This document shows, piece after piece, positions 1,252 through 54,785 of a stretch of 64,000 nt of DNA. The translations under genes were made by a program, and so were the position numbers. Below the pieces are notes generated by a model, which worked only from the letters and a program-made list of their open reading frames with translations, did not search any database and had not been told where the DNA came from. The stretch is from [Collinsella] massiliensis (GTDB lineage Bacteria > Actinomycetota > Coriobacteriia > Coriobacteriales > Coriobacteriaceae), in contig CAPI01000066.1 in the NCBI GenBank assembly GCA_000333815.1, positions 1 through 64,000 of the forward strand, given 5' to 3'. How positions within the stretch are numbered: position 1 is the stretch's first letter; every line of letters starts with the position of its first letter.

Positions 1252-3237
1252 ATGAAGATCGCGATCGCGCAGGTCGACATGCGTCTGGGGGACATCGACG
1301 CCATCTGCGGCCGCCTTGAGAGCCAGGCCGTCATCGCGCACGAGCAGGGCGCGCGCCTGCTCTGCGCCCCCGCCCCGCTCCTCACGGGCACGATGCCCGG
1401 CATGCTCATGGCGTCGCGCGGCTTCATGCACGATATGCTCTCCGGGCTCTCCGCGCTTTCCGAGCGCGTCGCCCTGCTCGACATCGCCCTGCTCGTGCCC
1501 GCGGTCGTGGAGTACCAGGGGACGGCGCTCTTCGAGACGTTCCTGCTCAGGAAGGGGCGCGTCGTGCCCATCCGCGCGCTCGCCGCCCTCCGGGGCGAGC
1601 GGGCGGGCGAGGATCTGTGGCAGCCGCCCGTGTTCGAGGTCGACGGCCTGCGCTGCGCGCCCGTGTTCGACTTCGAGCGCGATATCGACCTCGTGCCCAC
1701 CGGCTGCGACGTGGTCATCTACTTCCAGGCGGCGCCGTTCTGCGCCGCGCGCGCGGAGTCGGCCGCGGTCGCGTCGGTCGCCGACGGGCACTTCCGCCCG
1801 CAGGTCGCCCAGCGCAGCATGTGGCTCGCATGCGTCGCGCCGGTGGGCGGCTTCGACGAGACGGCCTTCACCGGGGGCTCGTTTTTCATGGACGATTGCG
1901 GGCGCGTCATCGCTGCGGCGCCGTGCTTCGAGGAGGCCCTCCTCGTGCAGGACGTGCAGCGCGGCATCACGGTGCCGTGCATCGAGGACCATCTGCTGCC
2001 CCACTTCGACCGCAGCGAATGGCTCTGGGAGGCGCTGCGCCTCTGGCTCGCCGATGCCGCCTGTGCGCGCGGCATCGGCGGGGCAGCGGTGGTGCTCGCG
2101 GGCGACCTGCCGAGCTCGCTCGCGGCGGCGCTCTGCGTGGACGCGTTCGGTTCCCGCAACGTCGTGGGCATCGTCATCGAGCGCGCCCGGGCGCTGACGC
2201 CGCAGGACGAGGAGGCCGAGCGCGAGCGGCTCGATCGGGCGCGCGCGGTCGCCTCGGGCCTGCGCATCCGCACCGTGGAGCGCGTGGAGCCGGCGTTCTC
2301 CGAGCTCTTGGACCGAGACGCCCCGCCCGCCGGCACCGATGGGGAGCGCGGCCGCACGGGCGCCTCCGCGCGCGCCGCCGATGCCTTCGAGCAGATGGTG
2401 CTCGCGGATGTCGCGGAGCGCGAGCAGGCGCTGCCGGTGCGCGCGCTGTGCAAGACCGACTACGCCCTCGCGCCCGACGCCTGCGCGGCGGGCCCCGTCG
2501 GGGCGGTTGCGCCGTTCGGTGACGTGTACCTCACGGCGCTCGAGTTCCTCGCGCGCTGGCGCAACGGCTCGGGCTCGACGCTGCCCGCGCCGCTCGCCAC
2601 GCTCCGCGCGGTTCGTGCCGCGCTTGCGGGCATCCTCGCGCGTGCGTCGCTTCCCGCGCGCATCGCACCGGAATTCGGCGCGCGTGCGGCAGAGCTCCTG
2701 CGGAGCCTGGGACCGGCGGAGGTCGACGGCGTGCTCGAGGCGCATATCGACCGCGCGCTGCCCTTCGACGAGATCCCGCTCGCTTCCCAGCGCCCCGATG
2801 CCGTCGCCGTGCTGCTCATGCTCGTCCGCCACGGCGAGGCGGCGCGCCGCGCGCTGCCGGGGTACCCGTCCGTCTCTGCGTGCTCGCTCGCGGAGCGCGC
2901 CTGGCCGGCATCACTTGCGTGGTCCGAGCTCGGGCTGCGCGGGGCGGAGCCGCAGACGCTCGAGGCGCTCGTGCGCGCCGAGCTCGAGCGGGCCGAGTCG
3001 CGCGGCGCCGAGATGGGCGAGCGCATGCGCGACGAACTCGTGGGCTTCGTGAGCAACCTGCTCGGCATCACGCCGGAGCAGCTCGAGGAGCTGGGCTCGG
3101 AGGAGGGCCGCGCCCGCCTGGGCGCGAATCTTCCGCAGGTCGAGGAACAGATCCAGCGCTCGCTGCAGCAGCTCTTCGAGCAAGGGGGCGGCAGGCTCGC
3201 CGGCTCCCACGGCATGCCCTTCTTCTCGCGCAACTAG
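1252..3237 (+). CDS. NadE-like protein (nitrilase + NAD-synthetase domains) with degenerate active sites
   Basis: The 661-residue protein has the architecture of glutamine-dependent NAD+ synthetase. An N-terminal nitrilase/glutaminase-like domain (about 1-250) opens with MKIAIAQVDMRLGDIDAI, and a C-terminal synthetase-like domain begins near 275. The residues that should do chemistry are missing. The FPE glutamate region reads CAPAPLLTG, the expected lysine segment reads RVVPIRALAAL, the ICEDLW cysteine segment reads APVFDFERDI, and the SGGxDS ATP loop reads LAGDLPSSLAAAL. The later CKTDYALAP and GDVYLTALEF motifs survive. I start at 1252 (MKIAIAQ), not at the ATG at 1216, because family homology begins there. 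It may be a pseudoenzyme or have a new role; a sequence-level function is not assignable. Confidence 0.7.
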   Translation: MKIAIAQVDMRLGDIDAICGRLESQAVIAHEQGARLLCAPAPLLTGTMPGMLMASRGFMHDMLSGLSALSERVALLDIALLVPAVVEYQGTALFETFLLRKGRVVPIRALAALRGERAGEDLWQPPVFEVDGLRCAPVFDFERDIDLVPTGCDVVIYFQAAPFCAARAESAAVASVADGHFRPQVAQRSMWLACVAPVGGFDETAFTGGSFFMDDCGRVIAAAPCFEEALLVQDVQRGITVPCIEDHLLPHFDRSEWLWEALRLWLADAACARGIGGAAVVLAGDLPSSLAAALCVDAFGSRNVVGIVIERARALTPQDEEAERERLDRARAVASGLRIRTVERVEPAFSELLDRDAPPAGTDGERGRTGASARAADAFEQMVLADVAEREQALPVRALCKTDYALAPDACAAGPVGAVAPFGDVYLTALEFLARWRNGSGSTLPAPLATLRAVRAALAGILARASLPARIAPEFGARAAELLRSLGPAEVDGVLEAHIDRALPFDEIPLASQRPDAVAVLLMLVRHGEAARRALPGYPSVSACSLAERAWPASLAWSELGLRGAEPQTLEALVRAELERAESRGAEMGERMRDELVGFVSNLLGITPEQLEELGSEEGRARLGANLPQVEEQIQRSLQQLFEQGGGRLAGSHGMPFFSRN

Positions 3238-3341
3238 GTGATTGTGCGGCGCGGCACTTCGGCTTGGTCGCCCTCGCGGCGTCCCGCGCGCCCGATTTTC
3301 TCAGGACGAGCTTTCTCGGCCGGCACGCCCTTCCGCTGTGC

Positions 3342-3360
3342 TATAGTAGAACAAATGTTC
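3342..3360 (+). promoter_or_regulatory. -10 element and LexA-type SOS box upstream of ruvCAB
   Basis: TATAGT at 3342-3347 is followed directly by GAACAAATGTTC at 3349-3360. This fits the Gram-positive LexA operator pattern GAAC-N4-GTTC with an AT-rich centre, and lies 25 bases before the ruvC start. LexA repression of ruvCAB is well established in other bacteria; here it is inferred from the site alone. Confidence 0.7.
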
Positions 3361-3384
3361 GTGAGCACGTGAGAGGGGGCGCGC

Positions 3385-3909
3385 ATGGTCGTCTTGGGCA
3401 TCGACCCGGGTCTGGCGAATACCGGCTGGGGCATCATCGAGGAGCGGCGGGGCGCGTGCCGCTGCCGCGCGTACGGGTGCATCCATACGGCGAGCGATGC
3501 CGACCTCGCGTCGCGCCTGAGGCGCATCGTGGACGAGCTCACCATGGTGGTCGACCGCTATCAACCCCATGCCGCCGCCGTCGAGGGCATCTATTTCGGC
3601 GCGAACGTGCGCTCCGCCATACCCACCGCGCACGCCCGCGGCGCGGCGCTCGTGGCGTGCTCGCTCGCCGGCGTCGAGGTGGGGGAGTACACCCCCATGC
3701 AGATCAAGCAGGCCGTCGTGGGCACGGGCGCCGCGGATAAGCACCAGGTCACGTATATGGTGCGGAACCTGCTGCACCTCGATCACGATCCCAAGCCGGA
3801 CCACGCCGCGGACGCGCTCGCGTGCGCCATCTGCCACGCCAACCTTTGGCGCACCGCGGCGGCGACGAACGGCGCCTACATCAAGGAGAAGGGAAACCCC
3901 TACGCATGA
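3385..3909 (+). CDS. ruvC: Holliday junction endonuclease RuvC
   Basis: Cuts Holliday junctions as a dimer working with RuvAB during recombinational repair. The 174 residues match the family length, and the acidic catalytic set is present: Asp7 in GIDPG, Glu near 67 in AAVEGIYFG, and two Asp in DHAADALA near 139-142. GAGAGGGGG lies 5 bases before the ATG. It is the first gene of the ruvCAB operon: its stop overlaps the ruvA start (ATGA). An SOS box sits just upstream. Confidence 0.96.
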   Translation: MVVLGIDPGLANTGWGIIEERRGACRCRAYGCIHTASDADLASRLRRIVDELTMVVDRYQPHAAAVEGIYFGANVRSAIPTAHARGAALVACSLAGVEVGEYTPMQIKQAVVGTGAADKHQVTYMVRNLLHLDHDPKPDHAADALACAICHANLWRTAAATNGAYIKEKGNPYA

Positions 3910-4523
3910 TCGCTCAGCTTAGAGGAACGCTCGTCGAGGCGACGCCCTCCGTCGCGGTGCTTGACGTATCGGGCATCGGCTTCGAGGTGGGCATCTCCGG
4001 CATGACCGCGGCCTCCCTGCCGCCGCTCGGCGAGGAGGCGCGCCTCTTCACCCGGATGCGCGTGGGCAACGACGCCGTGGCGCTCTTCGGCTTCGCCACG
4101 CCCGAGGAGCGCACCATGTTCGACCGGCTCGTCGCCGTGTCGGGCGTGGGGCCGCGCCTCGCGCTGGCCGTGCTGTCGAAGTACACCGTCTCGCAGGTGT
4201 ACGCCATCGTCATGGCCGAGGACCTCGCCGGCATGTCGGCCGTCTCGGGCGTGGGGAAGAAGACCGCCCAGCGCCTTGTGCTCGAGCTCAAGGGCTCCCT
4301 TGCGAACGACCGCGAGCTCGCGGGCGCGCCCGCGCCGGCGGTCGGGCGCATCCCCGTCGCCCGCGCCGCGACGAGTCCGCTTGAGGATGCCCGCGTCGCG
4401 CTCCTTTCCATGGGCTTCACGCCGCAGGAGACGGAGCTCGCACTCGACGGGTATGATGATGACGGCATGCGGGTGGAGGACCTGCTTGCCGCCGCGTTGA
4501 AGCGACTGGGGATGGATGCATGA
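3906..4523 (+). CDS. ruvA: Holliday junction branch-migration protein RuvA
   Basis: Binds four-way junctions and loads the RuvB motor. The 205-residue protein shows the N-terminal OB fold ([23 protein letters not shown]), two helix-hairpin-helix motifs ([15 protein letters not shown] near 77-91 and [20 protein letters not shown] near 112-131), and a C-terminal domain III ([22 protein letters not shown]) that contacts RuvB. Its ATG overlaps the ruvC stop by four bases and its own stop overlaps the ruvB start, so the three genes are translationally coupled. Confidence 0.96.
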
Positions 4524-5602
4524 TGTGGGAAGCGGACGCAAGCCAAGACCTATGGGAGGACGTGCCGCGCCGGGGCGGCGGGGCCGCCGCGGGCTCGTCG
4601 CATGGCGACCGCTTCGTGACGGGCAACCTCACCTCGGATGACCTCGACGTCGAGCGGAGCCTGCGCCCGCAGCGCCTCGACGACTACTGCGGCCAGGAGC
4701 ACATCAAGCAGAGCCTGCGCATCCTCATCGAGGCCGCGCAGAGCCGCGGCGAGACGCTCGACCACGTGATCTTCTCGGGTCCTCCCGGCCTGGGCAAGAC
4801 CACGCTCGCGACCGTCGTCGCCAACGAGCTCGGCGCGCAGATCAAGACCACCTCGGGCCCGGCCATCGAGCGCACGGGCGACCTCGCGGCGATCCTCACC
4901 AACCTCCAGCCCGGCGACGTGCTGTTCATCGACGAGATCCATCGCCTCAACCGTTCCGTCGAGGAGGTCCTCTATCCCGCGATGGAGGACTTCGCCCTCG
5001 ACATCGTGATCGGCAAGGGTCCTGCGGCGCGCTCCATCCGCCTCGAGATCCCGCACTTCACGCTCGTGGGCGCCACGACGCGCTCGGGCATGCTCACCGG
5101 CCCCTTGCGCGACCGCTTCGGCATCTCGTTCAGGCTCGACTACTATTCCGTCGAGGACCTCGCGCAGATCGTGCTCAGGTCCGCGGCGATCCTGGGGGTC
5201 TCGGTGGACTACGACTCCGCCGCCGAGATCGCCTCGCGCTCGCGCGGGACGCCGCGCCTGGCGAACCGCCTGCTCAAGCGCGTGCGCGATTACGCGCAGG
5301 TGCGCGGCGGCGGGTCGGTCGACGTGGACATCGCGCGCGAGGCGCTCGAGTTCTTCGAGATCGACGAGCTCGGCCTCGACTGGATGGACATCCGCATCTT
5401 GGAGACGCTCGCGCGCACCTTCCATGGCCGCGCCGTCGGGCTCAGTACGCTCGCGAGCGCGGTGGGCGAGGATCCCTCGACGCTCGAGGACGTCTACGAG
5501 CCGTACCTGCTGCAGCGCGGGCTCATGGTGCGCACGCCGCAGGGCCGCATGGCGACGCTCGCCGCCTTCGAGCACCTGGGCATGCAGCCGCCGCGCGCAT
5601 AG
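4520..5602 (+). CDS. ruvB: Holliday junction ATP-dependent helicase RuvB
   Basis: AAA+ motor that drives branch migration with RuvA. The 360-residue protein contains [11 protein letters not shown] (Walker A, about 89-99), DEIHRLN (Walker B), [17 protein letters not shown] (sensor I and arginine finger region) and the C-terminal winged helix ending near RTPQGRMA. Two adjacent ATG codons (4520 and 4523) are possible; both overlap the ruvA stop. The N-terminus ([19 protein letters not shown]) is longer than in many homologues, and the conserved domain starts near [12 protein letters not shown]. Confidence 0.96.
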
Positions 5603-6124: not shown

Positions 6125-7753
6125 ATGGCCTGCACCACCATCTTGATCGGCAAGAGCGCGAGCTACGACGGGTCGACGATCGTCGCGCGCAACGAGGATT
6201 CCCCCAACGGCCAGTTCGAGCCCAAGCGCCTCACGGTCGTGCACCCCGAGGACCAGCCGCGCACCTACACCTCCACGGCGTCGCATCTCACCATCGAGCT
6301 CCCGGACGACCCCATGCGCTACACGGCGGTTCCCGACGCCATCCCCGGCCACGGCCCCTGGGCGGAGGCAGGTTTCAATGAGCGCAACGTCGGCATGAGC
6401 GCGACCGAGACCATCACCTCGAACCCGCGCGTGCTCGGCGCGGACCCGCTCGTCACCTACCGCCCCGCCGAGGGCGTCGAGGGCGAGCCCGGCTACGTGG
6501 CCGAGCAGCCCGGCGGCATCGGCGAGGAGGACATGGTCACGCTCGTGCTGCCCTACATCACGAGCGCGCGCGACGGCGTGCGCCGCCTGGGAGCGCTCCT
6601 GGAGCGCTACGGCACCTACGAGATGAACGGCGTCGCGTTCTCGGACGTCGACGAGATCTGGTGGCTCGAGACGATCGGCGGGCACCACTGGATCGCGAAG
6701 CGCGTGCCGGACGATGCGTATGTGACCATGCCGAACCAGCTCGGGATCGATTACTTCGACCTCGCGGACGCCGAGGGGGACCAGGTCGAGCACATGGCGA
6801 GCGCCGATCTGCGCTCCTGGATGCACGCGCACCATCTTGACCTCACGCTCCTCAAGCTCGACGCCTTCGACGAGCTCTACGACGACCTCGTCGATGCGGA
6901 TGGGGGCGAAGCGGGGGACGGGGCCGACCAGGACCTGCTCGACCTGCTCGAGGATGTGCGCGCGGGCGTGCTCGCCGGCGACATCTTCAACCCGCGCGAG
7001 GCGTTTGGGAGCCACACCGACACCGACCACGTGTACAACACGCCGCGCGCCTGGTACATGCAGCGCTGCCTGAACCCGGGCGACGGCTGGGACGGCCCGG
7101 CCGCGGCGTTCACGCCCGAGTCCGATGACATCCCGTGGGCGCGCGTCCCCGAGCGCAAGCTCACCATCGAGGACGTGAAGGACGTGCTCTCCGCCCACTA
7201 CCAGGGCACGCCGTTCGACCCCTACGGCTACAAGGGCACCCCGGCCTCGCGCGGCCTGTACCGGCCCATCGGCATCAACCGCAACGGCCAGCTCGCCGTG
7301 CTGCAGCTGCGCCCTTACGCGCCCGAGGGCTGGCGCGCCGTGCAGTGGATGGCGTTCGGCTCGAACCCCTTCAACGCGCTCGTGCCTCTCTACGCGAACG
7401 TCGACGCGCTGCCGGAGTACCTGGGCAACACGACCGCCCGCGTGACGAGCGAGAGCTTCTACTGGGCGAACCGCCTCATCGCCGCCCTCGCCGACGCGCG
7501 CTTCCACGAGAACGCGGCGGCGGTCCAGGGCTACCAGGAGAAGATGGCGGCGGCGGGGCACGCGATGCTCTACCGGACGGATGCCGAGGCGGCGGCGCTT
7601 CCGGAAGGGGAGGTGCGCCCGTGCCTCGCCCGCGCGAACGACGCGCTCGCCGTCAAGCTCAAGCAGGCCACCGAGGATCTGCTCGCCAAGGTGCTCTACA
7701 CCATGAGCTGCGCCATGCGCAACGGCTTCGCGATGTCCGACAACGAGCGCTGA
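6125..7753 (+). CDS. C69 family dipeptidase (PepD-like)
   Basis: The 542-residue protein begins MACTTILIGKSASYDGSTIV: the cysteine after Met-Ala is the expected N-terminal nucleophile of peptidase family C69, which cleaves broad-range dipeptides. Further family landmarks are IVARNEDSPNG, GFNERNVGMSATETI and IWWLETIGGHHWIAKRVPDD. No signal peptide is visible, so it is probably cytosolic. AAGGAGG lies 5 bases before the ATG. It is followed directly by a hairpin terminator and is probably a single-gene unit. Confidence 0.9.
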   Translation: MACTTILIGKSASYDGSTIVARNEDSPNGQFEPKRLTVVHPEDQPRTYTSTASHLTIELPDDPMRYTAVPDAIPGHGPWAEAGFNERNVGMSATETITSNPRVLGADPLVTYRPAEGVEGEPGYVAEQPGGIGEEDMVTLVLPYITSARDGVRRLGALLERYGTYEMNGVAFSDVDEIWWLETIGGHHWIAKRVPDDAYVTMPNQLGIDYFDLADAEGDQVEHMASADLRSWMHAHHLDLTLLKLDAFDELYDDLVDADGGEAGDGADQDLLDLLEDVRAGVLAGDIFNPREAFGSHTDTDHVYNTPRAWYMQRCLNPGDGWDGPAAAFTPESDDIPWARVPERKLTIEDVKDVLSAHYQGTPFDPYGYKGTPASRGLYRPIGINRNGQLAVLQLRPYAPEGWRAVQWMAFGSNPFNALVPLYANVDALPEYLGNTTARVTSESFYWANRLIAALADARFHENAAAVQGYQEKMAAAGHAMLYRTDAEAAALPEGEVRPCLARANDALAVKLKQATEDLLAKVLYTMSCAMRNGFAMSDNER

Positions 7754-7786
7754 GTGATAAAACCCAGACAGGCTGGTTTTTATCAT
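7754..7786 (+). terminator. Bidirectional-type hairpin terminator after the dipeptidase
   Basis: TGATAAAACCCAG and CTGGTTTTTATCA pair around a short loop directly after the stop codon. The outer A-run and T-run arms make it potentially active on both strands. The same outer arms recur in the hairpin at 31080-31114. Confidence 0.7.
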
Positions 7787-7868
7787 CTCGTGTGGGTGAA
7801 TCGGGGTACAAGAGGGGCATGTCGGCCGATGATGGGAAGGCCGGCTTCATGCGGATTAGGGAGGCATC

Positions 7869-8330
7869 ATGGCCACATCGTTTGAAGACCTCATGAACAA
7901 CATGGTCAACGTGAGCTTGGGAGCCGCCGCGATGGCGGCCGACAAGGGCAAGGAGTTCCTGGACGATCTCACCGCGCGCGGCGCCCAGGTGCGCGCCGAT
8001 GCGGCCGACACCGATTTCGGCCGCTCGATGGCGGACGCGTTCGAGCGCGCGGGCGGCACGTTCCACGACGTCACCGAGCGCATGAGCGCCCAGGGCGCGA
8101 CCGTCGCCGAGCGCATCTTGGACGAGCTCATCCTCGCGCGCGTGCGCCCGCTCTCGGCGACCGAGCGCGCGGCCTTCATCGCGCACGTCGAGGAGCTCGT
8201 GGCGAACGCGCCCGACGCCGCCGTCGAGGTGCCGGTCGAGTCGGTCGAGGTCGAGACCGAGGAGGTCGAGGTCGAGGAGACCGTGGACGACGCTTCCGAG
8301 GACGCCTCAGAAGACGCCCCCGCCCAGTAA
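7869..8330 (+). CDS. Phasin-like acidic helical protein
   Basis: This 153-residue protein has a helical N-terminal half (FEDLMNNMVNVSLGAAAMAA then KGKEFLDDLTARGAQV) and a Glu/Val-rich acidic tail with repeated VEVE and EDASED stretches. The N-terminal pattern of hydrophobic helix, then KxKEFLDDLxARG, resembles the short phasin/PhaI-type regulators that often precede UbiB-family kinases in Gram-positive anaerobes. That link is by context and pattern, not a confirmed family hit. The UbiB-family gene begins 9 bases downstream, so they very probably form an operon. GGGAGG precedes the start. Confidence 0.55.
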   Translation: MATSFEDLMNNMVNVSLGAAAMAADKGKEFLDDLTARGAQVRADAADTDFGRSMADAFERAGGTFHDVTERMSAQGATVAERILDELILARVRPLSATERAAFIAHVEELVANAPDAAVEVPVESVEVETEEVEVEETVDDASEDASEDAPAQ

Positions 8331-8339
8331 CGGTGCCCT

Positions 8340-10115
8340 ATGACCATGGGCCGCGCTGAGGATGAGACGATACAACCGAGCCCGGAACCCGCGGGTGCCG
8401 CTGACGCCGCGGCGGAGCAGGCCGACTTCGTGCCCTCGCGCACGAGCTTCCGGCGCGCCCGCGCGGTCGATGAGGTGCCCGACGAGCCCGAGGCGATGGC
8501 GGATACCGAGAAGTACCAGCTCACGCTCACCGGCCGCCGGCGGCGCATCGCGGAGATCCTGCGCATCGCCCGCAAGTACGAGGTCTGGCACGACCTGACC
8601 CCCGTGCGCCTGCGCCGGATGCTCGAGGAGCTCGGCCCCATGTTCGTCAAGATGGGGCAGATCCTTGCGAACCGCTCGGAGATCCTGCCGCAGCGCTACT
8701 GCGACGAGCTGCGCCGCCTGCGCACGGAGGTCGACCCGGTGCCGTACCCCGTCGTGCTCGAGTGCCTCGAGGCGGAGTACGGCCAGGAGCTCGGCGAGAT
8801 CTTCGACGCCGTCGACCCGAACCCGCTCGGGTCGGCCTCGCTCGCGCAGGTGCACCGCGCGCGCCTCGTCACGGGCGAGGACGTGGCGGTGAAGGTGCAG
8901 CGCCCCGGCGCGCAGCAGGTCATGGCGCAGGACATCGACATCATGCGGTCGCTCGCGCGGCACGTCACGCGCTTCATCAAGACCGAGCAGATCATCGACA
9001 TGCGCGAGGTGGTCGAGGAGCTGTGGCGGTCGTTCCGCGAGGAGACGAACTTCCTCGCCGAGGCGCGCAACCTGAGCGAGTTCTATGCATACCATAAATC
9101 CACGCCCGGCATCTCCTGCCCGCGCTCGTACCTCGAGCTGTGCACCGAGCACGTCGTGGTCATGGACTACATCGACGGCATATCGATCTCCGAGCCCGCC
9201 GCGCTCAAGCGCGCCGGGTACGACCTGCGCGACGTGGGCGAGCGCATCGTCGACGACTACGCCACGCAGGTGCTCGACGACGGCTTCTTCCATGCGGACC
9301 CGCACGCGGGCAACATCATCTTGAAGGACGGCGTCATCTACTTCATCGACCTCGGCATGGTGGGCCGCATGTCCGAGCACGACCGCGGCATCGTGAAGGA
9401 GATCATCTTCGCGGTGGCGGAGAGCGACGTCCCCAAGCTCAAGGACGCCTTCATGCGCTTCGCGGTCTCGCGCGGAGACACCGCCTCCATCGACCACACG
9501 GCCTTCCTCACCGACCTCGACTACATCGTGCAGGATTTCGGCAGCGCGAACCTCAAGGACCTCGACATCGGCCGCTTCCTCACCACGCTCATCAACCTGG
9601 CGCGGAAGAACTCCATCGAGCTGCCGAGCGTCGTGACGCTCTTCGCGCGCGGCATGGTGACACTCGAGGGCCTGCTCACGGAGTACCTGCCCGACGTCAA
9701 CATGATCGAGATCATCCAGGTGCACATCGCGCACGAGAAGAGCGCCTACGCCCGGATGCGCGAGGCGGCCGAGGAGTTCGGCAAGGGCGCGGTGCGCGCG
9801 GCGCGGGGGAACCTGCAGACCGCCGAGTACCTGGGGCTCGCGTCGCGCATGCTCACGCGCGGGCAGCTCAAGATCAACGCCGAGGTGCTTGGGTCCGACG
9901 CGGTGCTGCGCCGCCTGGGCGGCATCGTGGACCGCCTCTCGATGTCGATCGTCATCGCGGGCCTCTTCATCGGCTCCTCGGTGGTCTATTACGCAAAGAT
10001 CGAGCCGGTCATCTTCGGCATCCCCATCATCGGCTTTCTGGGGTACTTCTTCGCGCTCGTGCTCGCGCTCATGCTCGGCCGCGAGATCTGGCGAAACTCC
10101 CACGGCAAGCGCTAG
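8340..10115 (+). CDS. ABC1/UbiB/AarF family atypical kinase
   Basis: The 591-residue protein carries the UbiB/ADCK signature set: KMGQ (about 105, the KxGQ motif), LGSASLAQVHRA (about 161, the Ala-rich loop), DPHAGNII near 320 and IDLGMVG near 336. Two hydrophobic segments at the C-terminus (SIVIAGLFIGSSVVYYA and IPIIGFLGYFFALVLALML) should anchor it in the membrane. Homologues support quinone biosynthesis or lipid handling; no ubiquinone pathway is visible here, so the substrate is open. A second in-frame ATG at 8346 is possible. It follows the phasin-like gene with a 9-base gap. Confidence 0.88.
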   Translation: MTMGRAEDETIQPSPEPAGAADAAAEQADFVPSRTSFRRARAVDEVPDEPEAMADTEKYQLTLTGRRRRIAEILRIARKYEVWHDLTPVRLRRMLEELGPMFVKMGQILANRSEILPQRYCDELRRLRTEVDPVPYPVVLECLEAEYGQELGEIFDAVDPNPLGSASLAQVHRARLVTGEDVAVKVQRPGAQQVMAQDIDIMRSLARHVTRFIKTEQIIDMREVVEELWRSFREETNFLAEARNLSEFYAYHKSTPGISCPRSYLELCTEHVVVMDYIDGISISEPAALKRAGYDLRDVGERIVDDYATQVLDDGFFHADPHAGNIILKDGVIYFIDLGMVGRMSEHDRGIVKEIIFAVAESDVPKLKDAFMRFAVSRGDTASIDHTAFLTDLDYIVQDFGSANLKDLDIGRFLTTLINLARKNSIELPSVVTLFARGMVTLEGLLTEYLPDVNMIEIIQVHIAHEKSAYARMREAAEEFGKGAVRAARGNLQTAEYLGLASRMLTRGQLKINAEVLGSDAVLRRLGGIVDRLSMSIVIAGLFIGSSVVYYAKIEPVIFGIPIIGFLGYFFALVLALMLGREIWRNSHGKR

Positions 10116-31928: not shown

Positions 31929-31968
31929 AAACAATAACCTCGCTTCCAAAGCGTGGGGATGATCTGCC

Positions 31969-32051
31969 GCCCCGCCCCCTCACCGTATCATCCCGTGCTC
32001 AAACAGCGCTGCGCGAACTGCGCGCGGAACGATACGGTGAGGGGGCGGGGC
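31969..32051. repeat. Variable-arm hairpin repeat, copy 1
   Basis: Arms of 21 bases (31969-31989 and 32031-32051) are perfectly complementary. They enclose a 41-base core holding GTGCTCAAACAGCGCT and CGCGAACTGCGCGCGG. The core recurs inverted at 32202-32270 and in related form at 63542-63610, while the arms of the three copies share no sequence. Confidence 0.75.
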
Positions 32052-32201
32052 GACATCACCTGCTCTCGTACCCATTTCAAGCAGGTTGACCATCCAAAAC
32101 AAAGAATGGTTGCAACCCTTCCATCTCTCCGCACCTTGGGTGATCGGTGGGAGCGGCACCGCGCTCGACCTGGCCGCGGAGAGGGGTGATGCTGTGGGGG
32201 T

Positions 32202-32270
32202 CGGGTCGGCCATACCGTCCCGCGCGCAGTTCGCGAAGCGCTGTCTGAGCACGGGATGGTATGGCCGACC
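32202..32270. repeat. Variable-arm hairpin repeat, copy 2 (inverted relative to copy 1)
   Basis: A 20-bp stem, GGGTCGGCCATACCGTCCCG at 32202-32221 pairing with 32251-32270 (one G-U), encloses a 29-base core that is the reverse complement of the copy 1 core with few changes. Together with copy 1 it fills most of the thiC-thiD gap; the 150 bases between them (32052-32201) show nothing I can name. Confidence 0.75.
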
Positions 32271-32290
32271 CGGCCCGCGTCAGGCGCCTA

Positions 32291-39302: not shown

Positions 39303-39453
39303 GGTTTGGACAAGGCTGGATGGCGCAGGGCGGGCTTCTGTTTTGCTGAAGCCGGCTACTTGGGTTGCCCCTGTAGTTGGGCTTGATCGTGACGCAATAA
39401 GAGAGGTTCCGATCCCGTGCAGGGACGCGGTCTTTCCTATATGTCCTTTCGAG

Positions 39454-39489
39454 GTTTGGGGCATTGGCATTCTGGCTGGTAATCAAACG
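39454..39489 (+). repeat. 37-bp family site, copy A
   Basis: 36-bp copy opening GTTTGGGGCATTGG and closing CTGGCTGGTAATCAAACG. First of seven sites; the preceding 150 bases after the RpiR gene contain nothing recognisable. Confidence 0.75.
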
Positions 39490-39511
39490 GGATGTCCATC
39501 TCTTCCTCCTA

Positions 39512-39594
39512 TGGTTGGGGCGGCGGGACTCGAACCCGCACGGGTCCCCCACGTGCTTCTGGGCACGCGCGTCTGCCGTTTCCGCCACACCCCG
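39512..39594 (-). tRNA. tRNA-Leu-like gene, probably defective
   Basis: On the minus strand a class II tRNA is readable: U8-G9, a leucine-type D-arm GCGGAAACGGCAGACGC, a variable arm GGGGGACCC, an intact T-arm GCGGG-TTCGAGT-CCCGC and an encoded CCA. The anticodon stem CGTGC/GCACG encloses only six bases (CCAGAA), one short of the normal seven; CAG would be the anticodon if a U were restored. The first acceptor pair is C-A. It sits between sites A and B of the repeat array. Either a decayed tRNA or one carried by a mobile element. Confidence 0.55.
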
Positions 39595-39764
39595 TTGAGG
39601 TATAATCAGATTGGATAGGCGCACACCCCCCCGGTTAAGAACCGAGGCAGAGTAGCGCCTTTCCGCTTATCTAAGATGAATGAGATCCCCGCCAGGGCGG
39701 ATGATGATCACCTCATCAAGCGTTCCGTCGTCAACGAATCTCTGAGATGTCTCTCTCACGTAAT

Positions 39765-39801
39765 GTTTTGGAGTAGTGGCATTCTGACTGGTAAGCAAAC
39801 C
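39765..39801 (+). repeat. 37-bp family site, copy B
   Basis: Opens GTTTTGGAGTAGTGGC and closes CTGACTGGTAAGCAAACC. The TGG-to-TGA change shows the sequence is kept as DNA, not as a reading frame. Between A and B lie the tRNA-Leu-like gene and about 165 bases with a GGTTAAGAACC hairpin but no clear gene. Confidence 0.75.
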
Positions 39802-39888
39802 AGATGGAAGGGTTGCAATAGGGGATAAGAAATACGACGATGACGGCGAAAGGGTGACGTTCCACCCGCAGGAGCAGGAGGGGCAGGC

Positions 39889-40170
39889 ATGAGGTACGCA
39901 TATGACCGCGCAAGTGGCCGCGTGTTCGGCAAGCCTGATCCCGACAAGGCGGCGATCGCTCGCTTCTTCGAAGCCTCAGAGTTTGATATCTTCGCCGCCG
40001 GGTACGTCATCGACAAGGTGACGGGCGAGTGGACCGACATACCGCTCGCGGCGACGGGGCGCGACGGCTTCTGCTGGGATAGCGATGACGCGTACCATTT
40101 CGAGAAGTACGACATGGAACTGACGCCAGAGTTCCGCGCCTATGCCCTGGCGCACGCGCCCGGGGAGTAG
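39889..40170 (+). CDS. Small protein of the cassette region, unknown function
   Basis: A 93-residue acidic, aromatic-rich protein (FDIFAAGYVIDKVTGEWTDI, WDSDDAYHFEKYDMELT). No family is recognised. GGAGCAGGAGGGG lies before the ATG. It is the only good ORF between sites B and C and is followed by a good intrinsic terminator at 40195-40220. Confidence 0.65.
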   Translation: MRYAYDRASGRVFGKPDPDKAAIARFFEASEFDIFAAGYVIDKVTGEWTDIPLAATGRDGFCWDSDDAYHFEKYDMELTPEFRAYALAHAPGE

Positions 40171-40194
40171 GGCGGCCCGACAACTCGATTCAAC

Positions 40195-40220
40195 GGGAGC
40201 CCCCGCGAGGGGGCTTCTTT
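40195..40220 (+). terminator. Intrinsic terminator inside the cassette region
   Basis: AGCCCCC (40198-40204) pairs with GGGGGCT (40209-40215) around GCGA, followed by TCTTTC. Ends the small gene at 39889-40170. A second hairpin, GGGAGCC/GGCTCCC, follows near 40260-40279. Confidence 0.75.
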
Positions 40221-40329
40221 CATGCCGCGTGACACCGGGCATAGCATCCCGTCAGGCAGGGGAGCCGCCGAGGCTCCCGTATAGGCATGCCGCAGCCGAT
40301 GCGGCGGCGCGATGGCGGAATGAACCGCC

Positions 40330-40365
40330 GTTTTGTAGCGCTGGCATTCTGGCTGGTAATCAAGC
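40330..40365 (+). repeat. 37-bp family site, copy C
   Basis: Opens GTTTTGTAGCGCTGGCATTC and closes TGGCTGGTAATCAAGC. The terminal CAAAC is altered to CAAGC. Confidence 0.7.
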
Positions 40366-40428
40366 AACTCCCCAGGCGCTTCTCATAGACAAGCGCGGTA
40401 TGGATGGGCGCATCGCGAGATAAAAAAC

Positions 40429-40466
40429 GGTTCCAGAACCAAGCCGAGCTCGGAGCGGAACCGAAA
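40429..40466 (-). terminator. Hairpin filling the short segment between sites C and D
   Basis: CGGTTCC (40430-40436) pairs with GGAACCG (40459-40465), with a nested CCGAGCTCGG. On the minus strand it is followed by six T (40424-40429). The 118-base C-D segment otherwise holds no ORF. Confidence 0.55.
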
Positions 40467-40483
40467 AGCAAATCTATTATACC

Positions 40484-40518
40484 GTTTTGATCAATGGCAT
40501 TCTGGCGGGCAATCAAAC
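40484..40518 (+). repeat. 37-bp family site, copy D
   Basis: Opens GTTTTGATCAATGGCATTC and closes TGGCGGGCAATCAAAC; the most diverged copy, 35 bp. Confidence 0.65.
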
Positions 40519-40564
40519 CAGCATCTGGCGTTGATAGGCTGCGTCGAGAGGAAGAGGAGTCGTT

Positions 40565-40723
40565 CTGTCGCGCAACCATCCCAACGGCACGCCGCCATCA
40601 TGGATTGACATAAAGACGGTGGCCGGGAACGGTTGGATCAGGGAGTCGGTAATTACGTGCCGCGACGGTACGCAATGGGAGATTGCACGCGAAACCCCCG
40701 AGGTAATCGAGGTATTAGAATAA
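40565..40723 (+). CDS. Possible small protein with CTG start
   Basis: A 52-residue frame reading SRNHPNGTPPSWIDIKTVAG then GWIRESVITCRDGTQWEIAR has a protein-like composition. No ATG, GTG or TTG is in frame; GGAAGAGGAG lies 5 bases before a CTG, so initiation at CTG is assumed. It is the first frame after site D. Weakly supported. Confidence 0.3.
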   Translation: MSRNHPNGTPPSWIDIKTVAGNGWIRESVITCRDGTQWEIARETPEVIEVLE

Positions 40724-40824
40724 TATTGTGATATAACCAGGGCAGATAACCCCGATATATCGAACCGGCGCATCATCGAAGACGCCACCCTTCGGATGGT
40801 CGTTGAGGAGAATGAGGAGCGAAG

Positions 40825-41019
40825 ATGGTTCAGGATGAGGAAGGCGAGGTCATCTTAGAAGACCATGAGTTCGGCCTTCTGATCGATGACGATGACACCG
40901 CGTCGTATGACCCGTATTCCGACACCTCGGACTGGCCTGAATGGATTCGGCGATCTTATGCGAAGGTATCGAAAGAGGTGAGGGCGGAGCACACAGAGCT
41001 CTTCAAGAGTAGGGCTTAG
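40825..41019 (+). CDS. Small acidic protein of the cassette region
   Basis: A 64-residue protein rich in Asp/Glu (ILEDHEFGLLIDDDDTASYD). No known family. GAGGAGCGAAG precedes the ATG. Could be a DNA-mimic-like or antitoxin-like small protein, but that is only a composition-based guess. Lies in the long D-E segment. Confidence 0.5.
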   Translation: MVQDEEGEVILEDHEFGLLIDDDDTASYDPYSDTSDWPEWIRRSYAKVSKEVRAEHTELFKSRA

Positions 41020-41072
41020 CTTGGCAGGAGCCTCCTCGCAGGGGCTCTGCTGCGCTTTCGTCGTGGCGGCCT

Positions 41073-41312
41073 TTACCACCAGATTGCATACCCGGACTCC
41101 TCGAAGCGCCCGGATTCGTTGAACTCGCGGAGTTTCGAGAACATGTGGCCGGCGTAGACGTGGTTGAAGTCAGCGCTCGACTCCTCAACCACGGACACCT
41201 CGCCCGATTCACGGTCGATCATCGCCTTGCCGGGCACCGAGGCATCGTTCTCGGGCAGAAACGTGTACACCGCCGTGCGGTCGTCGATGCTGTCGAGCGA
41301 GAACCGTATCAT
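41073..41312 (-). CDS. Small protein on the opposite strand within the cassette region
   Basis: A 79-residue protein: MIRFSLDSIDDRTAVYTFLP, GKAMIDRESGEVSVVEES, FNHVYAGHMFSKLREFNESG. The regular beta-rich start and KLREFNESGRFEESGYAIWW end look like a genuine compact domain, similar in style to short hypothetical proteins seen in gut actinobacteria. Start chosen at 41312, where the homology-like part begins; AGGG lies just upstream. It is the only minus-strand gene between sites. Confidence 0.6.
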   Translation of the reverse strand: MIRFSLDSIDDRTAVYTFLPENDASVPGKAMIDRESGEVSVVEESSADFNHVYAGHMFSKLREFNESGRFEESGYAIWW

Positions 41313-41420
41313 TTCCCTAACCGTCCCTAGATTTGAGCCATCCGAGTGGCTGGTTGGTACAATCGTATTCCATCCCACAGGCGACACACGCCATGGACGG
41401 GCTTTTGGAGGCGATTCCGA

Positions 41421-41675
41421 ATGGCGCAGCATAGCTGGGAAGAGACCGAGGAGATAGAGGCCCGCTACCACGAGGTCTTCGGCCTCGACGCAAGGACTCC
41501 GATCCTGCCCTTCATGTGGCCGTCCGTGGAGTTCCTCGAGACGTGGGACAAGGGGCAGGCGATGCTCGACTGCATCGAGTGCGGCGAGACGTGGGACGAC
41601 GAGGCGGACTACAGCCCCTGGAAGGGCGTTATTCCCGAGATGGAGCGGCTCGCGGAAGAAGGGGTCGTGTTCTAG
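41421..41675 (+). CDS. Small protein of the cassette region
   Basis: An 84-residue protein (HSWEETEEIEARYHEVFGLD, PSVEFLETWDKGQAMLDCIE) with no recognised family. The ATG at 41421 is chosen over the longer frame because GGAGG lies 10 bases upstream; composition changes from Arg-rich to acidic there. It is followed without a gap by the next gene, so they are coupled. Confidence 0.6.
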   Translation: MAQHSWEETEEIEARYHEVFGLDARTPILPFMWPSVEFLETWDKGQAMLDCIECGETWDDEADYSPWKGVIPEMERLAEEGVVF

Positions 41676-41963
41676 ATGACGGCCATTGATGTGCACGAGA
41701 AGAGTCGCCTGCTCGGAATCGACTACGACGATTACACCGAGGCCGTCAAATTGACGGGCAGCATGATCTTCGATGCGATCGATTCCGGGACATATGGGGT
41801 CGATGCGTATATCGACATGGTCAAGTCCCTCCCGCCGAAGCCCATGGTCGCGCTTATACGTTACGACGGGCTCTATAAGCAGTACTCGAGGGTCTTCGAC
41901 TTCGACGGACCCATCCCCGGCGTCGAGGCGGCCTACCCCTACGCCGGCAGGGATGACGAGTAG
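41676..41963 (+). CDS. Small protein of the cassette region, unknown
   Basis: A 95-residue acidic protein (LGIDYDDYTEAVKLTGSMIF, YIDMVKSLPPKPMVALIRYD). Unknown family. Its ATG directly follows the stop of the preceding gene. It ends 10 bases before site E. Confidence 0.6.
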   Translation: MTAIDVHEKSRLLGIDYDDYTEAVKLTGSMIFDAIDSGTYGVDAYIDMVKSLPPKPMVALIRYDGLYKQYSRVFDFDGPIPGVEAAYPYAGRDDE

Positions 41964-41973
41964 CAGCCCACTG

Positions 41974-42010
41974 GTTTTGGAGCAGTGGCGTTCAGACTGG
42001 TAGTCAAACG
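41974..42010 (+). repeat. 37-bp family site, copy E
   Basis: Opens GTTTTGGAGCAGTGGCGTTC and closes AGACTGGTAGTCAAACG. Lies 10 bases after a stop codon and reads into the next gene. Confidence 0.75.
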
Positions 42011-42020
42011 GGGGCGCGAG

Positions 42021-42290
42021 TTGAGCATTTGGAGCGATTTTTGGGCCGAATGGAGAACAGAGTTCACCGTCGAGGACGATTCAATGCTTCTTTCCAGAAT
42101 GCTTGAAGCACTTCCGGCGGACGAGCTCCAGCTGTTCGAGAGCGAATGCGATGTCGCGGACTCGCTCCGCGCCGAGCATGGCCTGCAACCCGATTTCGAC
42201 CAGATCTGCGAGCGCGCCATCATGGAGCGCTTCGCCGACGAGGAGGCCGAGCGCGCCGCGAAGGGCGTCATCGACGCGGTGAAGCCCTAG
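42021..42290 (+). CDS. Small acidic protein of the cassette region
   Basis: An 89-residue protein (SIWSDFWAEWRTEFTVEDDS, ALPADELQLFESECDVADSL, ICERAIMERFADEEAERAAK). The TTG at 42021 with GGGGGCGCGAG upstream is preferred; a GTG at 41985 inside site E would add 12 residues (MAFRLVVKRGRE). Unknown family, helical and acidic. It ends 2 bases before site F. Confidence 0.55.
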   Translation: MSIWSDFWAEWRTEFTVEDDSMLLSRMLEALPADELQLFESECDVADSLRAEHGLQPDFDQICERAIMERFADEEAERAAKGVIDAVKP

Positions 42291-42292
42291 GG

Positions 42293-42329
42293 GTTTTGGA
42301 GCAGCGGTATTCTGACTGGTAATCAAACG
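42293..42329 (+). repeat. 37-bp family site, copy F
   Basis: Opens GTTTTGGAGCAGCGGTATTC and closes TGACTGGTAATCAAACG. Two bases after a stop codon. The next 160 bases hold a 28-residue frame with no start and a GGGGCGG/CCGCCCC hairpin at 42443-42462. Confidence 0.75.
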
Positions 42330-42498
42330 CCTCGGTCATATACTGCGCCATAGACAAGCGCCTGAGCGGGCGGGAAGAGCGGCGAGCGGAAGCGAAGCGT
42401 GACGGCGAACACTTCCGCAAGCCCGGAAAATAAGGAGGTGAAGGGGCGGCGGCAACCGCCCCACCGCCTCACCCGCATGGTACCACGAAGGAGGACAT

Positions 42499-42591
42499 AT
42501 GGGCGAGTTCGTGCTCGACGTGCTCAGGGCTTTCGCCGTGACGTTCGGCGTGGGGGTCGCGTACCTCCTGATCAAGAACCGGAGGCGGTAG
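42499..42591 (+). CDS. 30-residue single-helix membrane peptide
   Basis: MGEFVLDVLRAFAVTFGVGV followed by AYLLIKNRRR: one hydrophobic helix and a basic tail, typical of tiny membrane proteins. AAGGAGG lies 5 bases before the ATG. The next gene starts 2 bases after its stop, so they form a pair. Confidence 0.6.
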   Translation: MGEFVLDVLRAFAVTFGVGVAYLLIKNRRR

Positions 42592-42593
42592 CC

Positions 42594-42788
42594 ATGCCGT
42601 ACACCGAGGCTCAGAAGCGCGCCACGGTGAAGTACCTGAAGAACAACGTGCGGCGCGCGGTGGTGGCGTTCTACCCCGCCGAGGACGAGCGGTGGGAATG
42701 GCTGGACTCCCAGCCGAACAAGGCGGGCTACATCAAGCGGCTGATTCGCGAGGACATGGAGCGAAGCCGCGGAGAGGTTTTGGCGTAG
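42594..42788 (+). CDS. Small basic protein, ribbon-helix-helix-like
   Basis: A 64-residue protein: PYTEAQKRATVKYLKNNVRR, VVAFYPAEDERWEWLDSQPN, KAGYIKRLIREDMERSRGEV. The strand VVVAFYP-like segment followed by two helices with KAGYIKRLIRED recalls small RHH-type DNA-binding proteins abundant in gut actinobacteria; this is pattern-based. GGAGG lies 9 bases upstream. Its stop codon lies inside site G. Confidence 0.6.
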   Translation: MPYTEAQKRATVKYLKNNVRRAVVAFYPAEDERWEWLDSQPNKAGYIKRLIREDMERSRGEVLA

Positions 42789-42813
42789 CGGCATTCTGGC
42801 TGGTAATCAAACG
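42777..42813 (+). repeat. 37-bp family site, copy G
   Basis: Opens GTTTTGGCGTAGCGGCATTC and closes TGGCTGGTAATCAAACG. The first 12 bases supply the last codons and stop of the preceding gene. Last copy I can find. Confidence 0.75.
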
Positions 42814-42947
42814 AAAGGCAGCCATAGTCGACGTTCGGAGAGGGAGATCGCGGGCAATCGTAGAGCGGGATGCGGTCGTGGTCGTGAACCCGGAGAGAGA
42901 TAGAACCATAACGGCATGTCGGGCAGGGAGGCGGGAGAGGAGAAGGT

Positions 42948-43154
42948 ATGGCACTGACCAAGGGGCAGAGTGATTTGCTGAATCGGTTCGACCTCACGAC
43001 AGACTTGAGTTTGGCGAAAGTTCGTCTCGCTGTTCACGCTTCCTCGATGCTCGCGATCTCATTCATCTCGATGCATGTGATCGGGTGCTTCCAGCCGGTG
43101 ATGTCGATGCTCTCCGGCTCGTCGGGGTCGTCCGCCTCGGTGGTCTTGCCGTAG
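42948..43154 (+). CDS. Possible small protein, probably truncated
   Basis: The first 33 residues (ALTKGQSDLLNRFDLTTDLS then LAKVRLAVHASS) look coding and GAGAGGAGAAGG precedes the ATG. From 43034 the frame runs antisense to a better-supported minus-strand gene, so the true gene probably ends or was cut near there. Upstream, 42814-42968 carries another truncated frame (AIVERDAVVVVNPERDRTIT). Confidence 0.3.
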   Translation: MALTKGQSDLLNRFDLTTDLSLAKVRLAVHASSMLAISFISMHVIGCFQPVMSMLSGSSGSSASVVLP

Positions 43155-43240
43155 AACCTGCCGCGCACGATCTCCCCATCGGTGCAGGTTATCTTGACCT
43201 CCTTGCCGAATAGGTGCTCTATGTCGGCTACCCTAAGCAT
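43034..43240 (-). CDS. Small LSm-like protein, unknown
   Basis: A 68-residue protein: LRVADIEHLFGKEVKITCTD, GEIVRGRFYGKTTEADDPDE, PESIDITGWKHPITCIEMNE. The VKITCTDGEIVRGRF strand-turn-strand recalls Sm/LSm-like small barrels, a pattern-level remark. AGGAGATGG lies before the ATG at 43240. It overlaps the upstream gene on the same strand by 8 bases. Confidence 0.55.
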   Translation of the reverse strand: MLRVADIEHLFGKEVKITCTDGEIVRGRFYGKTTEADDPDEPESIDITGWKHPITCIEMNEIASIEEA

Positions 43241-43502
43241 CTTCCATCTCCTCATATACCTCGAACGGCACGATGTGCGTTCCGCGCTTCGAGTAGTGGA
43301 TCTTGAATCCCCTGATCAAGGCTTCGTATCTGTCCTTGTTGACAATATACCCGACAGTCCAATCTGCGCCACGTGCGCCTGCCCGTTCAAAGAGCCGACG
43401 CGGCGTGCCCTTTCCGGTATAGCGCCTTCTGAATCCATCCTCCTCATCCCCGCTGACGACCAGATGGCTCGGCGCGGGGAAGGACGAACCCTTCGCGCGC
43501 AT
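43233..43502 (-). CDS. Small basic protein of the accessory island
   Basis: An 89-residue protein containing VVSGDEEDGFRRRYTGKGTP, FERAGARGADWTVGYIVNKD and FKIHYSKRGTHIVPFEVYEE. No family recognised, but composition and phase favour coding. Start at 43502 is a choice among several; an AAAGGC lies 8 bases upstream. Its end overlaps the LSm-like gene, forming a two-gene unit. About 280 bases upstream (43503-43781) show no convincing gene. Confidence 0.5.
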   Translation of the reverse strand: MRAKGSSFPAPSHLVVSGDEEDGFRRRYTGKGTPRRLFERAGARGADWTVGYIVNKDRYEALIRGFKIHYSKRGTHIVPFEVYEEMEDA

Positions 43503-43781
43503 CGACGATGCCTTTTCACCGCACCCCTTCGAGCCCTTGACGTGCCTGTGCTGTGCAGTCCGGTTCAACGTGTTCGGCAGGTCGCTTGCCGCGCGCTTTC
43601 CTCGTTCCCTCGATGGCTCACCACTCGTGGAAACTCACTTCTTCCGGATCGGCACGACCTTTGTCATGTTCCCGTTTGATCCATTTACAAGTTGGGCGTC
43701 CTGTTTGACTCACCTACGAGACATGCAGGTGTCCGATTTATTGAACAATCATTTAGCGGATTGGTTGATTATGCGGGTAGG

Positions 43782-47118: not shown

Positions 47119-47184
47119 GTAAAACAACCCCAGGGGCACTCTTGCATGATGCGATGTAAAAATACCCCTGGGGTTATTTTACAT
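47119..47184. repeat. Pair of CCCC-palindrome hairpins between yaaA and the sugar operon
   Basis: GTAAAACAACCCCAGGGG at 47119-47136 is followed at 47154-47184 by a palindrome reading ATGTAAAAATACCCC then TGGGGTTATTTTACAT. They can pair with each other or fold alone. Nearly the same 31-base palindrome occurs at 54561-54591 and 54755-54785. Confidence 0.65.
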
Positions 47185-54553: not shown

Positions 54554-54560
54554 GCCGTTG

Positions 54561-54591
54561 ATGTAGAAAAACCCCTGGGGTTATTTTACGT
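54561..54591. repeat. 31-base palindrome, copy 2
   Basis: Reads ATGTAGAAAAACCCC then TGGGGTTATTTTACGT; identical to 54755-54785 and close to 47154-47184. Arms with A- and T-runs give it terminator potential on both strands. Confidence 0.7.
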
Positions 54592-54738: not shown

Positions 54739-54754
54739 TTTTACGACCCCTCTG

Positions 54755-54785
54755 ATGTAGAAAAACCCCTGGGGTTATTTTACGT
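54755..54785. repeat. 31-base palindrome, copy 3
   Basis: Identical to 54561-54591. Its last two bases overlap the start of the 85-base tetR-derived direct repeat. Confidence 0.7.

Follow-up and report, generated by a model that had tools for sequence, protein, structure and literature searches.

The seven direct repeats at positions 39453 to 42812 of [Collinsella] massiliensis contig CAPI01000066.1 are type II-A CRISPR (clustered regularly interspaced short palindromic repeats) repeats, because the same repeat makes up cas-linked arrays in relatives. They lie in a stretch of 64,000 nucleotides, positions 1 to 64,000 of the contig, which we call the window. Since neither cas9 nor a type II cas1 was found in the genome, the array is a relic and not a working member of its type. 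It probably took up gene-length DNA and was kept for its immunity genes after the cas genes had been lost.

All seven copies lie on the plus strand. In a register of 36 bp, with GTTTTGGAGCAGTGGCATTCTGACTGGTAATCAAAC as the consensus, the degenerate copy 1 (39453 to 39488) has four mismatches, copy 2 (39765 to 39800) two, copy 3 (40330 to 40365) five, copy 5 (41974 to 42009) three, copy 6 (42293 to 42328) two and copy 7 (42777 to 42812) four; copy 4 (40484 to 40518) is a 35-bp variant and the most degenerate. The original prediction had reported seven plus-strand copies, and these proved real: an independent profile search returned the same seven and none beyond, and their 24-nt core, present at six places in the window with at most three mismatches, did not occur in 100 dinucleotide shuffles. 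A search of all 135 contigs of the genome (2.33 Mb, completeness 99.65%), as had been suggested there, placed the repeat at this single locus, the core being confined to the array. Successive copies are separated by gaps of 276, 529, 118, 1455, 283 and 448 bp, and the repeats indeed delimit segments that hold unrelated small genes. The gene-then-site geometry described earlier was verified at three sites: copy 5 starts 10 bases past a 95-aa open reading frame (ORF) whose stop ends at 41963, copy 6 begins 2 bases past an ORF ending at 42290 and copy 7 contains TAG.

In relatives, the window repeat recurs at a spacing of 65 to 67 bp, with ordinary spacers of 29 to 31 bp; the window copies differ by two to eight mismatches from the repeat shared by two of these arrays, L025 and DFIX. 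On contig DFIX01000054.1, a 44-repeat array stands directly after cas9 (1373 aa), cas1, cas2 and a Csn2-type gene, where Cas1, Cas2 and Csn2 were named by sequence and gene order and Cas1 was confirmed with PF01867. A cas9-cas1-cas2-csn2 set also adjoins the arrays in L079, L081, L084 and L088, as found by tblastn with the four proteins. Around 6.1 to 6.2 kb ahead of several cas-linked arrays, just upstream of cas9, we detected a repeat-like match, which would fit the expected anti-repeat of the trans-activating CRISPR RNA (tracrRNA). Spacers of ordinary length were seen in the relatives only, the gaps of the window ranging from 118 to 1455 bp with no short ones among them. The window genome gave no TIGR01865 match for cas9, nor did four genomes of the same genus. 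For Cas1, it gave only a weak, split match of another kind (C10:26988-27596, in a 342-aa frame). This match of contig C10 is also present in G001 and G063 and possibly belongs to another CRISPR type. The integron-type reading of the original prediction is ruled out by the CRISPR identity of the repeat and by 39 insert termini, at which no common motif was found; the sites are not attC-like.

Gene-length inserts between such repeats occur in at least 15 further genomes of the order. In L025, whose genome belongs to the same order as that of the window, 16 repeats (13 of them identical) delimit eight spacers of 29 to 30 bp and seven inserts of 497 to 1001 bp. The numbers of short and long intervals are thus 8 and 7 in L025, and they are 5 and 7 in L077, 7 and 7 in L082, and 7 and 3 in L092. 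Long inserts in these mixed arrays are flanked by perfect repeats and intermixed with normal spacers. L094, L009, L123, L125 and the window carry long inserts only, and arrays with normal spacers only are common in the order (L078, L079, L081, L086, L090, L093, L095). Between exact repeats, 51 long inserts (117 to 2266 bp, median 606) were counted against 349 short spacers. The inserts stand in both orientations; three long gaps contain insertion sequence (IS) transposases, named from sequence, and are hence ordinary. In L025, L077, L082 and DFIX, normal spacers are closer to the leader than the long inserts, which are therefore not the newest units. The set of segments that these repeats enclose differs from one related genome to another, and certain segments are shared by different genera, so that of the earlier proposal the cassette-like arrangement stood and the integron identity did not. 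On the reverse strand of L025, two inserts with different toxin/immunity genes, at 1759 and 6052, have about 165 bp in common.

The identifiable inserts derive mostly from one phage block, comprising a MuF/minor-capsid toxin tip, an immunity gene and a scaffold. Those of L025 contain papain-fold glutamine amidase toxins (PF15644) as well as Ntox50 (PF15542, 3.5e-17); a JAB-like domain is also encoded there, along with a minor capsid protein of phage type. Inserts of other arrays contain MuF (PF04233), minor capsid 2 fused to DUF4258 (PF06152, PF14076), scaffolds (PF14265, PF06810), a terminase (PF04466), the Panacea antitoxin (PF13274) and a phage metallopeptidase (PF18894); PF11114 was also among the families identified. 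The toxin ORFs are truncated at their 5' ends and open into the repeat, the small gene downstream being complete. Several relatives' inserts, like prophage L118, show a fusion of MuF or minor capsid protein with a toxin, from the head block, and an adjacent immunity gene. A Panacea-domain antitoxin gene and a neighbouring membrane-protein gene occur inside the L092 array (2585-4850, reverse strand) and, in L009, just ahead of the array (7213-8659).

Several inserts are of phage origin. Between insert L077_7029 and the prophage resident in its own genome, the match is 78% over MuF and 92% over a thioredoxin-like gene with its terminator, and this homology reaches one base short of the 3' repeat. 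Already the first codons of the insert are part of an open MuF frame, so that no half-spacer remains at the 5' end. The prophage has the order terminase, portal, MuF with toxin tip, two small genes, scaffold and capsid. A gap of L077 reported as 1216 bp resolved into an insert of 1152 bp and a 30-bp spacer, separated by a further repeat that lacks 2 bp. A profile search did not find the repeat in the homologous resident prophage (L118), and phage-borne mini-arrays were rejected as a source, the exact repeat being absent from this prophage and from IMG/VR contigs. A DNA search for source phages of the L025 and L082 inserts, whose results were crowded by repeat matches, gave no convincing prophage match. 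Neither the immunity protein nor array DNA had a useful match in IMG/VR and INPHARED. Against IMG/VR, the MuF protein matched one distant contig and the conserved insert tail none.

Further toxin/immunity DNA, overlooked in the original prediction, was found past copy 7, from 42813 to about 43570. At 42813 to 42972 (plus strand) lies a toxin-tip tail with homology to the DUF4258 toxin in inserts of L082, and behind it an immunity-like ORF begins. On the minus strand, an immunity gene (43034 to 43255) with 94% amino acid identity to that of L025 insert A7 lies beside a decaying Ntox50 toxin domain (43233 to 43568; PF15542, 32.7 bits), which compared with A7 has suffered two frame-shifting deletions of 11 bp and 1 bp. 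For the immunity gene, comparison with A7 over 68 codons gave a synonymous divergence (dS) of 0.44, a nonsynonymous divergence (dN) of 0.03 and a dN/dS of 0.07. Intact immunity genes stand beside truncated or decaying toxins. The comparison with A7, a single pair, suggests that it is the immunity gene that has been retained.

Long inserts are associated with the loss of cas9. Among 12 genomes with cas9 we counted 311 short and 8 long intervals (8/319 long), against 36 short and 50 long intervals (50/86 long) in 12 genomes without it; a second, long-only array (L080, two long gaps) of the cas9-bearing G211 was left out of these counts. Per interval, the excess has p = 5e-32, a value that overstates independence as the genomes were picked by repeat pattern and are mutually related. 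Per genome, long intervals were present in 4 of 12 with cas9 and in all 12 without (p = 0.001). In G208, where cas9 and the beginning of cas1 have been lost, cas2 and csn2 are retained beside a mixed array. Long inserts are also found in arrays of genomes with cas9 (G069, G064).

The origin that we consider probable would run as follows. An array with active cas9-cas1-cas2-csn2 would occasionally acquire 0.1 to 2 kb of DNA, mostly from phages, instead of 30-bp spacers. Each capture would duplicate the repeat, placing the fragment like a spacer between two repeats. Selection would retain inserts with an intact immunity gene directed against a phage-borne polymorphic (MuF-type) toxin, the encoded proteins presumably protecting the host. 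Upon cas loss, ordinary spacers would vanish and gene-bearing inserts persist, the end state being an integron-like row of small genes separated by worn repeats. Cas1-Cas2 exactly duplicates the repeat around foreign DNA. Because of this property, the motif-free termini and the occurrence of inserts in both orientations, we favor rare captures by the adaptation machinery and infer that Cas1-Cas2 carried out the integration. No recombinase had been noticed near the window array, and this still holds; the one that was overlooked is most likely the lost Cas1-Cas2. More tentatively, CRISPR adaptation may here capture whole genes along with 30-bp guides, the array storing both RNA-guided and protein immunity, of which the gene part outlives Cas9.

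Several points weigh against this origin. Type II-A spacers are normally restricted to about 30 bp, and no acquisition events were observed. A protospacer-adjacent motif (PAM) was not obtained from protospacers, as 96 spacers gave fewer than five usable matches against 140 genomes. The two L025 inserts with a stretch in common are oppositely oriented and stop at one and the same phage nucleotide, which a simple PAM rule would not predict; this stop might reflect a fixed terminus of the DNA. Where cas9 is intact, few long inserts occur, so that another process may have acted after cas loss, and IS elements are found in three long gaps. The selection test concerns a single gene pair. Many insert genes have no family, and the share of immunity genes rests on annotated cases.

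Homologous recombination might produce the same arrangement. If two spacers match one phage, the phage segment between both protospacers could be swapped in, giving repeat-exact ends without long Cas1-Cas2 integration, and such events would survive mainly after Cas9 loss. This would explain both why inserts end exactly at the repeats and why long inserts are overrepresented in genomes without cas9. However, two 30-bp homologies are required, and a PAM is predicted just inside the insert, at about position 31, where 37 inserts had no motif, although a weak or variable PAM could escape. We consider such recombination unlikely. If, on the other hand, an array without cas genes were just a neutral landing place for IS elements and break-repair captures, with immunity genes playing no role, the concentration of long inserts in genomes without cas9 would be expected, as would the IS elements. 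This passive decay appears improbable, since L077_7029 is phage-like up to both repeats and shows no half-spacer, the repeats flanking inserts are often perfect, arrays of cas9-bearing genomes (G069, G064) hold inserts too, one conserved insert is common to different genera and purifying selection acts on an immunity gene.

A dedicated cassette system, in which a novel integrase uses CRISPR-type repeats as sites and shuttles toxin/immunity cassettes, would be in line with the long-only arrays of many genomes, among them the second array of G211 that lies away from cas9, and with the inserts common to different genera. We regard it as highly improbable: the termini share no sequence, the only recombinase genes seen at the array loci that were read are IS transposases and an integrase-like fragment within one insert, and the ordinary spacers in mixed arrays keep their exact length.

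Within the window array, copies 1 and 2 enclose insert 1 (39489 to 39764, 276 bp), in which a tRNA-Leu-like gene (39512-39594, minus strand) had been overlooked earlier. Its anticodon loop was unreadable to ARAGORN, and it resembles the tRNA-Leu(CAG) adjoining the CRISPR arrays of L079, L081 and L082. A tRNA-Leu(CAG) lies, in the same orientation, just past the arrays of G211, G206 and G378; a tRNA-Trp is found within a long insert of L094, and DFIX insert D1 appears to end in half a tRNA. An Rfam scan of the window and the L025 loci gave nothing but tRNA. Insert 2 (39801 to 40329, 529 bp) consists of a 93-aa ORF (39889-40170) and a structured tail (40199-40329) that shares about 90% identity with those of two L025 inserts, and insert 3 (40366 to 40483, 118 bp) gave no gene calls. 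Several small genes are contained in insert 4 (40519 to 41973, 1455 bp): a JAB-like fragment near its start with a homologue in L025 insert A5, an immunity-like gene (41073 to about 41312, minus strand) with homologues in L082 and L094 inserts, and the 95-aa ORF (41676-41963) with a homologue in an L009 insert. Insert 5 (42010 to 42292, 283 bp) has the small acidic ORF ending at 42290. Insert 6 (42329 to 42776, 448 bp) carries a small phage-type gene (MPYTEAQKRATVKY..., from 42595) with a homologue in a CRISPR-array insert of G064 (match listed as L046). MuF-type modules in the window are reduced to toxin tips and immunity genes. In the relative G004, RpiR and phosphatase genes are present at the corresponding place and the array is absent.

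Elsewhere in the window, two identical 33-bp sites, TGATGTAGAAAAACCCCTGGGGTTATTTTACGT, at 54559-54591 and 54753-54785 are partly palindromic and operator-like; a similar third copy lies 7 kb from them, at 47152-47184. Nested inverted repeats with arms of up to 55 bp and 172 bp between them occupy 31965-32276.

CRISPR arrays are usually read as stores of short guides, and we found no published account of gene-length, immunity-bearing inserts in them in the open-access literature. Long spacers make array finders split arrays (PMC5294841). Arrays with long gaps are split or dropped, and such arrays would therefore be overlooked. Should the inserts be genuine acquisitions, Cas1-Cas2 would in nature obey a less strict length rule than is assumed, and protective genes could be passed on by CRISPR loci. 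This suggests a route by which orphan immunity genes against phage toxins enter bacterial genomes, and a reason why arrays without cas genes persist.

Solitary repeat units, such as RNA anti-CRISPRs (Racr), and CreTA are single repeats producing RNA decoys or antitoxin RNAs. As in these, CRISPR-like repeats adjoin protein genes here; unlike a single phage repeat acting as a decoy, however, multiple repeats on bacterial chromosomes form rows that enclose protein-coding phage fragments. With integron cassette arrays the window shares small unrelated genes separated by related one-strand sites, but its sites are CRISPR repeats, inserts occur in both orientations, their termini are unrelated and no integron integrase was noticed at the array loci read. 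Type II-A CRISPR-Cas agrees in the 36-bp repeat, the 29-31 bp spacers of relatives and csn2 directly before the array, and differs in the gene-length inserts and in a window without cas genes and 30-bp spacers. MuF polymorphic toxins are known from temperate phages, with a portal-MuF gene order (PMC5576092) that is also that of the resident prophage of G208. The inserts resemble them in carrying pieces of MuF or minor-capsid genes with toxin tips and, behind these, small genes of immunity type, whereas the array modules are detached, 5'-truncated and placed in a host CRISPR array. All in all, type II-A CRISPR, MuF toxins (PMC5576092) and arrays without cas genes are known parts, and the occurrence of such mixed arrays in related bacteria suggests that CRISPR arrays are able to gather and retain whole protective genes.

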